From Lachnospiraceae bacterium (lineage in GTDB: Bacteria; Bacillota; Clostridia; Lachnospirales; Lachnospiraceae): a DNA stretch of 64,000 bases. Positions 9,061-64,000 of this stretch are shown in pieces. The stretch is taken from the NCBI GenBank assembly GCA_029225065.1, contig JAQXVT010000087.1, forward strand, positions 1 to 64,000. The letters are read 5' to 3'. Both the position numbers and the translations under genes were made by a program. A model generated the notes under the pieces. It did no database searches. It saw nothing but the letters and a program-made list of their open reading frames with translations, and was not told the DNA's origin. Positions within the stretch are counted from its first letter, which is position 1, and each line of letters opens with the position of its first letter.

Positions 9061-9126
9061 TAAATACAGAACAGCATCCCCCGCTTTATGCTGTTCGCAT
9101 TTGAAGCGGAAGATGCTGATCTGCAG
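9061..9126. repeat. Dispersed palindromic element, copy A1
   Basis: This roughly 65-base element can fold on itself: CCGCTT pairs with AAGCGG and CAGCATC with GATGCTG. The core with GCTTCAAATGCG on the minus strand matches copy A2 (30905-30974) and part of copy A3 (62851-62936). It lies between two divergent promoters. Confidence 0.55.
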
Positions 9127-9144
9127 CAACGTGCTTATTCTTTC

Positions 9145-9173
9145 TTGTACTGTGGCAGCAGTCATGCTATAAT
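9145..9173 (+). promoter_or_regulatory. Sigma-A promoter of the PPOX-fold gene
   Basis: TTGTAC (9145-9150) and a perfect TATAAT (9168-9173) are 17 bases apart, 28 bases before the start codon. Confidence 0.8.
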
Positions 9174-9201
9174 CGCTAAAATCAAGGAAGGAGGAATTCT
9201 C

Positions 9202-9678
9202 ATGTTCAGACCAATACGAAGAAGTAAAAAAGCAATTTCAGATGAAGCAGCCAAGGCACTGCTGCTGCACGAAAAACGTGGAATCTTCGCCGTCAATGGT
9301 GACGACGGATACCCCTATGCGATTCCGGTCAATTATTTTTATGACATGGAAAACAACAAAATCTACTTTCACGGCGCCAAAGCCGGACATAAAATAGATT
9401 CGCTGAAAAAAAGTGACAAGGTCTGCTTTACCGTATATGGAAATGAGCGGTTTGCAGAGGGCGAGTGGGCACCTTATCTGCAAAGTACCGTTGTATTCGG
9501 GCGCTGCCGCCTGATTGATGATTCCGAAATGACAAATGCGAGAGTCAGAGAGCTTGCTGCCAGATTCTATCCAACCAGCCAGGAAATCGATGCGGAGATG
9601 GAACGATCCGGCAGAGCTGTTCAGCTTTATGAAATTACCATCGAGCACTTAAGCGGAAAAGAGATTCAGGAAAAATAG
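9202..9678 (+). CDS. PPOX-fold flavin-binding protein (pyridoxamine 5-phosphate oxidase family, NimA-like)
   Basis: This 158-residue protein has the split-barrel fold of the pyridoxamine phosphate oxidase-like FMN proteins. Visible family marks are the GYPYAIPVNYFYD strand pair near residue 35, the IYFHGAKAGHKIDSL segment (the His and Lys are typical) and the STVVFGRCRLIDD strand. NimA-type members reduce nitro groups or bind FMN or heme; the reaction here is unknown. The ATG at 9202 follows AAGGAGGAATTCTC; longer upstream frames are not supported because the promoter lies inside them. It is a single gene that runs toward the patatin gene, with 7 bases between the stop codons. Confidence 0.87.
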   Translation: MFRPIRRSKKAISDEAAKALLLHEKRGIFAVNGDDGYPYAIPVNYFYDMENNKIYFHGAKAGHKIDSLKKSDKVCFTVYGNERFAEGEWAPYLQSTVVFGRCRLIDDSEMTNARVRELAARFYPTSQEIDAEMERSGRAVQLYEITIEHLSGKEIQEK

Positions 9679-15474: not shown

Positions 15475-15687
15475 TTATTTTTCGAATTTCGGCTGTAAAG
15501 CGGACCTTCGCAATCCACTGACTGTCAGGCATGCAGCACAGCATCGTGAGCACTTTCCTTCTTCTGATATGTCTGTCAAATACGGTACCATCTGCTGACA
15601 GCCAGCTTCCTTCATCTTGTGTAAAATTTTTTCCGTCTCTTCACTCCATCGGTTGTAGCCGCCTTTTATTTCTACTCCAAAAAGCAT
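15475..15687 (-). CDS. Small cysteine-containing protein of unknown function
   Basis: I do not recognise this 70-residue protein. It fills the gap between the acetyltransferase and oxidoreductase genes on the same strand, with an AGGTGA site before the ATG at 15687, 4 bases after the acetyltransferase stop. The first half (LFGVEIKGGYNRWSEETEKI) could form a beta strand and a helix. The second half has the cluster GKCSRCCAACL, which might bind a metal, followed by a basic tail. No signal peptide or membrane segment is seen. It could also be a remnant of a larger gene. Tight spacing with its neighbours is the main argument that it is translated. Confidence 0.5.
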   Translation of the reverse strand: MLFGVEIKGGYNRWSEETEKILHKMKEAGCQQMVPYLTDISEEGKCSRCCAACLTVSGLRRSALQPKFEK

Positions 15688-25850: not shown

Positions 25851-25919
25851 GTGTAAAACAGACATTCACGATCCGCTCCGCTGCCTGTTCGCAACAGACA
25901 GAAGCTGTTCTGTCAGATT
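25851..25919. repeat. Dispersed element, copy A4
   Basis: GTAAAACAGACATTCACGAT, then CCGCTCCGCTGCCTG, match copy A5 (44096-44142) and the left half of copy A3 (62851-62936); over 34 aligned bases A4 and A3 share 27. A gacagaa/ttctgtc hairpin follows inside the same stretch. It lies between the binding protein and permease genes. Confidence 0.55.
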
Positions 25920-30904: not shown

Positions 30905-30974
30905 ACAAAGCAGATAAAGCATCCCGCCCCGCTCAGTGCTCTGCGCACTTGAAGCGAGGGGAATGCTTATCTGT
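30905..30974. repeat. Dispersed palindromic element, copy A2
   Basis: AGCAGATAAAGCATCCC at one end pairs imperfectly with GGGAATGCTTATCTG at the other, and AGTGC pairs with GCACT inside. The minus-strand segment AGATAAGCATTC and the following CGCTTCAAGTGCGC are shared with copy A3 in the UvrA-like gene. It sits between the alpha-xylosidase and symporter genes and could act as a terminator or processing hairpin. Confidence 0.6.
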
Positions 30975-30981
30975 CTTTCCT

Positions 30982-61809: not shown

Positions 61810-64000
61810 TTACAGATACCGCCCTGTCACACTCTCCTCGCATGCCTGGATCTCCTCCGGCGTTCCGGCCGCGACGATTCTTCCACCGTCGCTTCCGCCG
61901 CCCGGTCCCATGTCGATGATGTAATCGGCGTTTCGCATGACGTCCAGATCATGCTCTATCACAATCACGGTCGCACCGTTTTTGATCAGCGTCTCGAACA
62001 CGCCAAGCAGTGTCCGCACATCAAGCGGATGCAGCCCGATCGTCGGCTCGTCGAAAACAAATACCGTATCCGACTGTGCTTTTCCCATCTCGCTCGCAAG
62101 TTTTAAGCGCTGTGCCTCCCCGCCGGAAAGGCTCGGTGTCTCCTCGCCAAGCGTCAGATAACCAAGTCCGAGATCCTGCAGCACCTGAAGCCTCTGATGT
62201 ACCGTCTTTAAATCGCGGCACATCTCAAGCGCCGTGCGTACATCCATCTCCATCAGTTCTGGAAGCGTGCACGACGCTCCGGCCTTGTTTTCGTAGCGGA
62301 TGCGCTGCGCCGTCACATCGTATCGCGAGCCGCGGCACTTCGGGCACGGGATATCCACATCCGGCAGAAACTGCACATCCAGACTGATTTCGCCCGTGCC
62401 GTCGCAGACCGGACAGCGAAGCTTTCCCGTGTTATAGGAAAAATCACCCGCCTTAAACCCAAGTGCCTTCGCATCCTGCGTTCTCGCATAAATCTTGCGC
62501 AGTTCATCGTGCACATTTGCATATGTGGCAACCGTGGAACGGACATTGATGCCGATCGGTGTTGCATCGATCAGTTTGACCTGACGGATGCCTGATAACT
62601 CGATCGATTTTACGTGATGCGGCAGTTCTCTGTCATGTGCCGCTGCATCCAGCCCCGGAATCAGGCTTTCCAGTACAAGGGTCGTCTTCCCCGAACCGGA
62701 AACGCCAGTCACGACGGTCAGCCGCCCTTTCGGAATCTCCACGTGCAGCGGCAAAACCGTATGAATCGCGTCAGATTCCATCCGAATCATACCCTTGGTG
62801 AAAAGTTCTTCCTTTGCCGCCCGATCTCGCAGCGTTCCATTATTATATGCTGTAAAGCAGACATTCTCACTCCGTTTCACTGCCTGCCCGGAAGCGCAGC
62901 CGCTTCGCGCACCTGAATCGTTAGAATGCTTATCTTCTTTTAAAAACGGACCGATCTGTGAGTTCTCATTTTCACAAAGTTCCTGCACGGTCCCCTGCGC
63001 GATGATATGACCGCCGTTTGCCCCGGCCTCCGGCCCCATCTCCACGATCCAGTCCGATTCAGATAAAATCTGTGTATCGTGATCGACAAGAATCACGGAA
63101 TTTCCGTCCGCAATCAGATCCCGCATCACGCCGGTAAGCCCTGTGATATTGGCCGGATGCAGTCCGATCGATGGCTCATCGAGCACGTACAGCACGCCGG
63201 TCGTGCGGTTCCGCACCGCGCGCGCCAGCTGCATTCTCTGACGCTCTCCGGTCGAAAGCGTGGACGCGGCGCGATCCATCGTCAGATAGCCAAGCCCCAG
63301 CTCCAGAAGGCGCCTCGCCGCTGTCTGAAATGACTCACAGATGCTCACTGCCATCGGCCGCATCTCCACCGGCAGCGAATCCGGCACGCGTTCCACCCAC
63401 AGCGTAAGCTCGGAAAGCGTCATAGCGCACGCCTCATCCAGTGAAATTCCCATAAGTTTTGGAAGCCGTGCGGCTTTTGAGAGCCTGGAGCCTCCGCAGT
63501 CCGGACACGTCTCCTGCTTCAGAAACTTCTCCACGCGCTTCATTCCCTTTTCATCCTTCACTTTGGAAAGCGCATTTTCCACGGTATAGACCGCATTAAA
63601 ATAAGTAAAATCCATTTCTCCGGCCGCACCGCTCGTCTTATTCTGATAGATCATGTGCTTTTTGACCGCCGGGCCGTGAAATACAATCTCCCTCTCTTTT
63701 TCGGTCAAATCCCGAAACGGCACATCGGTCCGCACACCAAGATCCCTTGCGATATCCTTCATCAGCGACCACATCAGCGTCTGCCACGGCCGCACTGCAC
63801 CTTCGTCAATAGAAAGAGACTCATCCGGCACAAGCGAATCCAGATCCACCGTCCGCACAGTTCCCGTTCCGTCGCACGTGCGGCAGGCGCCCTGGCTGTT
63901 GAACGCCAGCTCTTCTGCGGACGGTGCGAAAAAATGCGCGCCGCACATCGGGCAGACCAGTTCTTTTCCTGCTGCCACCGCAAACGACGGGGCCACATAA
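61810..64000 (-). CDS. UvrA-like excinuclease ATPase, N-terminus outside the window
   Basis: The frame is open to the right edge, so the first Walker A is not visible. Present are a CPMCG/CRTCDGTG zinc module, a first signature STLSTGERQRMQLARA and Walker B VLYVLDEPSIGLHPA. The second ABC unit follows, with Walker [21 protein letters not shown], zinc module CPVCDGTG/CPKCRGSR, signature SLSGGEAQRLKLAS and VFVFDEPTIGLHP. The LSTGE signature and the compact size suggest a UvrA paralog of the kind linked to drug tolerance, not the main UvrA. About 28 residues of the linker between the two ABC units (counted as 353-381 from 63996) are encoded by dispersed element A3. Confidence 0.9.
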   Translation of the reverse strand, partial: YVAPSFAVAAGKELVCPMCGAHFFAPSAEELAFNSQGACRTCDGTGTVRTVDLDSLVPDESLSIDEGAVRPWQTLMWSLMKDIARDLGVRTDVPFRDLTEKEREIVFHGPAVKKHMIYQNKTSGAAGEMDFTYFNAVYTVENALSKVKDEKGMKRVEKFLKQETCPDCGGSRLSKAARLPKLMGISLDEACAMTLSELTLWVERVPDSLPVEMRPMAVSICESFQTAARRLLELGLGYLTMDRAASTLSTGERQRMQLARAVRNRTTGVLYVLDEPSIGLHPANITGLTGVMRDLIADGNSVILVDHDTQILSESDWIVEMGPEAGANGGHIIAQGTVQELCENENSQIGPFLKEDKHSNDSGARSGCASGQAVKRSENVCFTAYNNGTLRDRAAKEELFTKGMIRMESDAIHTVLPLHVEIPKGRLTVVTGVSGSGKTTLVLESLIPGLDAAAHDRELPHHVKSIELSGIRQVKLIDATPIGINVRSTVATYANVHDELRKIYARTQDAKALGFKAGDFSYNTGKLRCPVCDGTGEISLDVQFLPDVDIPCPKCRGSRYDVTAQRIRYENKAGASCTLPELMEMDVRTALEMCRDLKTVHQRLQVLQDLGLGYLTLGEETPSLSGGEAQRLKLASEMGKAQSDTVFVFDEPTIGLHPLDVRTLLGVFETLIKNGATVIVIEHDLDVMRNADYIIDMGPGGGSDGGRIVAAGTPEEIQACEESVTGRYL
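62851..62936. repeat. Dispersed element, copy A3, inside the UvrA-like coding region
   Basis: The left part (TGTAAAGCAGACATTCTCAC and onward to CACTGCCTG) matches copies A4 and A5. The right part, read on the minus strand as AGATAAGCATTC then CGATTCAGGTGCGC, matches copies A2 and A1. It is read in frame without a stop and codes for a Ser/Ala/Gly-rich linker with GARSGCASGQAVKRSENVCF. Confidence 0.6.

Follow-up and report, generated by a model that had tools for sequence, protein, structure and literature searches.

A UvrA-like gene of a Lachnospiraceae bacterium carries an in-frame insert of 87 bases, which keeps both ends of a dispersed palindromic element. With high confidence, the best explanation is that a mobile element multiplied between genes and that a shortened copy was fixed in the linker of the UvrA-like protein, the gene being kept whole. 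The window is the whole stretch of 64,000 nucleotides analysed here, from contig 87 of the home genome (G000; 3,177,703 bases in 88 contigs). Table 1 gives the coordinates of the features.

Table 1. Position, strand and basis of each feature (window coordinates, except for the last row).
Feature	Position	Strand	Basis
Host gene, UvrA-like ATPase	61810..64000, runs beyond the window end	minus	Pfam and NCBIfam UvrA matches, motifs, structure matches
In-frame insert, a dispersed-element copy with an internal deletion, translation EDKHSNDSGARSGCASGQAVKRSENVCFT	62851..62937	minus	87 nt / 29 aa extra against 99/103 homologues; both ends by leave-one-out models
Head of the element in the insert (GTAAAGC...)	62852..62881	+	Leave-one-out model E 3.2e-4 at 62852-62880; model R1 (copy included) 29.5 bits
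Tail of the element in the insert (...GAATGCTTATCT...)	62906..62943	+	Leave-one-out model E 4.1e-7
Intergenic copy, head part	25851..25919	+	Head model E 2.5e-7 at 25853-25882; copy was in the model
Intergenic copy, tail hairpin	30905..30979	+	Tail model E 6.4e-11 at 30941-30979; copy was in the model; fold z -6.4
Head-only remnant at an ORF edge	15495..15519	+	Head model E 2e-5; sequence
Second in-frame copy, large membrane-protein gene L266	L266:1398-1534 = G000:C29:3606-3742		Read on the same element strand and with the same end frames as the UvrA copy

The host gene and the linker of its protein

The host gene encodes 854 amino acids from the chosen ATG, a whole UvrA-like protein. The part inside the window does not reach the NCBIfam UvrA cut-offs (595.8 against 1147 bits, and 581.3 against 729.8 bits), the gene being cut by the window end. 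The whole open reading frame keeps two Walker A motifs, two ABC signatures and the CxxC pairs. More precisely, the protein has the two ABC units, each with Walker A and signature, and the DNA-binding domain that define the UvrA superfamily. Solved UvrA chains match the whole protein, including 2vf7 (best stretch, residues 5-487) and 7sh1, both of which we take to be class II UvrA proteins. Proteins of class II are without the UvrB-binding domain. The length of the host protein and its match to these two chains might suggest that it belongs to the same class. Contig 4 of the genome (G000:C4) carries a separate uvrA, an open frame of 961 amino acids with 43% identity over the second half. The host gene is a paralogue alongside it.

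The insert consists of residues 480-508. An earlier note on this DNA had described an element of 86 bases, read in frame in the linker between the two ABC units. Its start at 62851 and the preserved frame stand; the homologues place the end at 62937 instead of 62936, which makes 87 bases. Since the insert is a multiple of three (3 x 29) and open in frame, the gene stays whole and the linker is 29 residues longer. With the host motifs kept, the gene looks intact as far as its sequence tells. The two signatures are 376 residues apart in the host protein, against 344-353 in 16 of the 20 homologues read; the others show 363, 363, 400 and 410. The value of 400 (L096, in G034) is due to additional sequence at another place in the second ABC half.

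We measured the linker between fixed anchors in two sets of homologues: 23 from a search of 60 genomes (22 from the genus, one from the order), and the 80 best among 579 relatives found. Locus L104, which holds part of the gene only, was left out. The linker has 27-33 residues in 99 of these 103 homologues (27-30 in 21/23, 28-33 in 78/80), against 59 in the window protein. The 29 extra residues (87 bases) coincide with the element. Genome G019, a congener, presents 79 head matches at E<=0.001, and its homologue has the highest identity (78%) among the 19 aligned; yet its linker is short (L083). The short linker in nearly all homologues, including that of the element-rich G019, argues that the element entered the gene. 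The comparison, which the earlier note had proposed as a check, thus supports at the level of sequence what it had put forward: the element was inserted into the UvrA-like gene, and not the reverse. We read the insert as an old, tolerated insertion.

The four remaining homologues have long linkers (L081, 46 residues; L102, 93; L150, 56; L153, 52). On these, no match of the head or tail model falls below E 0.17; for comparison, L083, whose linker is short, has a head match of E 0.031 in its flank. The linker of L102 (in G012), rich in lysine and glutamate, occupies the corresponding position and shows no convincing match to the element. It means that this site tolerates growth.

Both ends of the element in the insert

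The four long linkers without convincing element traces could suggest that the linker is merely variable and of low complexity, and that its match to intergenic repeats is fortuitous. Likewise, short models give chance-like matches, as in the flank of L083 and at 9096-9125. We consider this reading extremely improbable, given the following evidence.

The earlier models R1 and R2 included the UvrA copy, so both were rebuilt without it. These leave-one-out nhmmer models, with the head from 18 other copies and the tail from 12, match the UvrA gene in the correct order and on a single strand. The best match in the reversed-window control had E 1.4. The tail model also matches 9096-9125 (E 5.8e-4); this lies early in the ORF 9088-9678, before its Pfam domain, which begins at about residue 52. 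This match may be chance or a remnant, and it shows that E values of about 1e-4 to 1e-3 are no proof alone. The head match is therefore insufficient by itself; the tail match, together with the order of both ends, makes the case for the UvrA copy.

Direct comparisons give the same picture. At E<=3.1e-4, a BLAST search with 114 bases around the insert returned eight further genomic places, and neither of the window copies cited in the earlier note is among them. The 34 bases from 62852 agree with the copy at 25853 at 27 positions, as the note had claimed, and none of 300 random 34-mers of the window reached 27 matches elsewhere in it (maximum, 26). Its second comparison was with the copy at 30905. 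The word GAATGCTTATCT is common to both copies and occurs on the plus strand of the window at positions 30961 and 62924 only; the further 12 of 14 matches need a one-base gap, and the best ungapped count is 14 of 28. In the genome-wide count that the note had called for, the head pattern GTAAAGCAGACATTC was found 90 times when up to two mismatches were allowed, and its reversed control 13 times. For the tail pattern GAATGCTTATCTGC, allowing one mismatch, the counts are 19 and none.

The window-wide repeat search gave chiefly weak coding matches. One of its links, from 62838 to a weak match at 9404-9438 (start 9404), falls inside a pyridoxamine-oxidase-like gene, and we took it as chance.

The UvrA copy keeps the head and the tail, and its middle is gone. 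A copy in G019 (L395) has a partly comparable junction. The head departs from the consensus at 5 of 30 positions. The insert is thus diverged and yet still open, which could speak for domestication, a longer linker or an mRNA hairpin that alters function or expression being kept by selection. In the same sense, excerpts from PMC3733652 note that repair genes recur among the genes bearing REPs, and the authors speculate on altered activity. However, the fold of the UvrA copy is modest (z -1.7, with 10 of 200 shuffles equally good), and the genome has a separate uvrA besides this paralogue. We find domestication unlikely and retain a tolerated insertion as the preferred reading.

The element family and the position of its copies

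The intact element has 162 bp. Three collinear, palindromic copies of this length are present in G019, and each has stops in all six frames. One of them, folded as RNA on the tail-to-head strand, forms an outer stem with three hairpins and a separate head hairpin (-83 kcal/mol). The in-gene copies are shorter, with 87 and about 137 nt. Among 42 delimited copies of 60 bp or more, 28 have at least one open frame. When the first 90 bases of 162 copies are considered, the less often open strand is the one that both genes read. Eight copies folded singly had z values from -1.4 to -6.4 (UvrA, -1.7; L266, -1.4; the 30905 copy, -6.4), and some intergenic copies fold no more strongly than the in-gene ones.

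A second subfamily is present in G000 (e.g. C30:28136, C4:2833 and C61:2218), with the head RTCAAAGCGGATATTCGCAATCCGCTTCGCT and often the end CTCGGTTAAA. Many of its heads are identical over 28 bases, so from sequence this subfamily is probably younger.

Could the dispersed copies represent a structured RNA akin to Clostridiales-1 of Rfam (RF01699; a table row of PMC2864571), and not a mobile element? Weak matches of 22.8-27.5 bits occur at element copies in L392, L404, L405 and L406, and some loci are common to both. Nevertheless, these scores are far below the gathering score of 48 bits, and the window has no RF01699 match at E<=1. The strong matches are separate places, which adjoin the element matches that brought the loci in (L399 1089-1258, 110.8 bits; L394 1637-1798, 56.3 bits). 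A structured RNA in place of a mobile element is very unlikely, while a distant relation between the two is possible. As an observation in its own right, L399 and L394 suggest that the Clostridiales-1 RNA family may belong to such repeats or travel with them.

Most copies of the mobile element lie between genes. The R1 head model gave 152 matches in G000 at E<=1, about 150 of which were listed. We examined 141 places, namely 142 rows of that listing, minus two without sequence, plus C29:3606 added by hand; at least seven rows were left out. A place counted as coding if each side had 50 open residues and scored above 5 for codon usage, a rule that misses copies near gene ends (at C88:1208 the flank was too short for one strand). 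Only the UvrA copy and C29:3606 (L266) are situated well within coding frames, two of the 141 places. It was the tail model that pointed to C29:3606, hence its addition by hand; this second in-gene copy is absent from the head list. None of 21 places in G019 is inside a coding frame. At 25 of 39 tail matches we also checked the spanning frames, here by frame alone and with no codon score. Given that about 92% of the window is coding (hand-picked ORF list), the in-gene copies are depleted. This fits with selection against disruption, and the in-gene copies are rare survivors.

The second copy lies within an open frame of 834 residues. No Pfam match at E<=0.1 was found for the 813 residues submitted; we retained L266 because homologues exist. 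They have 26-30% identity and occur in 5 of 39 other genomes searched, besides a paralogue in G000. Their loops are shorter but variable, which makes this second case weaker. Read on one and the same strand, the two in-gene copies begin with FLKEDK and FLNADK and end with ENVCFT and ANVRFT. Ten spanning frames other than the UvrA-like gene were compared with Pfam. L248 and L236 have domains over the cut-off, both after the element, L201 has two sub-threshold ones, and seven (including L266) have none.

Spread, movement and known systems

Within the genus, the head model at E<=0.001 matches 7 of 47 genomes, G000 included, and four of the seven have a single match. Across the order, 13 of 392 genomes (10 of 173 genera) match at E<=1e-5, G000 included, two of them only over 27-36 bases; as no more than two places were scored in each genome, copy numbers do not follow from this survey, and the genus survey used stricter filters. 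Near-full copies with 93-97% identity exist in three other genera (G378, G219 and G156). The patchy spread and the high identity point to movement of the element between genomes. The plasmid search gave no element match. Ten unannotated faecal phage records (MT836195.1, MT839489.1, MT840025.1 and seven others) match the element; they are possibly a vehicle, or they may contain bacterial DNA. Synteny of the 30905 copy with G019 was compared and was uninformative.

The preferred mechanism would be as follows. A non-autonomous, hairpin-rich mobile element (intact, about 162 bp) would have multiplied in G000, with nearly all copies in intergenic positions. In the linker joining the two ABC halves, a shorter version that is free of stops in the frame concerned would have been fixed. 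The shortening would have come before or with the insertion, into a presumably flexible linker, and the insertion would have been neutral or nearly so. A transposase could have moved the element in trans.

Family PF01797 comprises the Y1 transposases of IS200/IS605 and RAYT type, and the ends of the element may resemble the cleavage sites of IS608. G000 has one Y1 gene, and the head model has no match at E<=10 within its 3.4-kb locus. PF01797 is present in 25 of the 47 genus genomes, many of which lack the element, and it is absent from G002, which has 17 head matches. A Y1 transposase as the mover is unsupported, since the family does not track the element across these genomes. No mobilising enzyme was found, the Y1 family being the one searched. 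In 11 near-full copies compared by eye, three of them with extrapolated right ends, the flanks look unrelated, the right flank starts with A in 10, and neither terminal inverted repeats nor a target-site duplication was evident. One could go further and propose an undescribed hairpin element that spread between genera by an unrecognised mover, its arrival in the UvrA-like gene, as for the REPs reported from uvrA of unrelated bacteria, reflecting either a real preference of such elements for UvrA genes or an unusual tolerance of these genes for longer linkers, which would affect the protein. We regard this proposal as improbable.

Palindromic elements inserted in frame are an established phenomenon, with examples among Rickettsia RPEs and among the elements of enterobacteria and Neisseria, according to excerpts from PMC2229807 and PMC10969869. 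The same excerpts describe RPEs as palindromic, about 105-150 bp long, and tolerated in frame within some protein genes. The earlier note had drawn this parallel, and the UvrA copy bears it out, as a dispersed palindromic copy read in frame in a protein gene. The likeness ends at the sequence, the host and the position of the copies. Nearly half of the R. conorii RPEs are in genes (PMC10969869), against 2 of 141 places here and 0 of 21 in G019. As to open frames, the three intact copies are closed in all six, and 28 of the 42 delimited copies of at least 60 bp have one or more.

Like Correia/NEMIS, ERIC and RUP, the MITEs treated in an excerpt from PMC2229807, the element is small, non-autonomous, hairpin-forming and chiefly intergenic. 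It is short, repeated, non-coding and spread between genomes, as MITEs are; no target-site duplication was seen by eye in the 11 near-full copies.

The closest precedent for the host gene comes from PMC3733652, where REPs, also palindromic repeats, are reported inside uvrA genes from O. terrae and Thioalkalivibrio; flexible linkers or loops were proposed there as tolerated sites. In an excerpt from that paper, REPs have 20-40 bp and GTAG or CGTC tags, and the GTAG ones are often near RAYT genes. Our element is larger and compound, with the head GTAAAGC and several hairpins in its intact form, and falls outside REPs in both size and tag. Beside the Y1 gene of G000 the head model found none of the flanking copies known for GTAG REPs. 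The terms Clostridi-, Firmicutes, Roseburia and Eubacterium do not occur in the main text of PMC3733652, and the openly licensed literature gave no account of such elements in Lachnospiraceae or clostridia. The novelty that the earlier note had supposed is thus divided. The phenomenon of in-gene palindromic elements is already known, including REPs in uvrA genes, while the element family seems to be new and undescribed.

Rickettsia is the best-known case of small palindromic elements inserted in frame into genes. The finding extends this to a different clade and a new family of elements, and the comparison with 103 homologues shows clearly the gene with and without the insert. One more UvrA-type gene joins those with palindromic repeats, a point relevant to the question of whether these genes are preferred as targets. 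Finally, the identity of 93-97% between genera makes the mode of movement a testable question.
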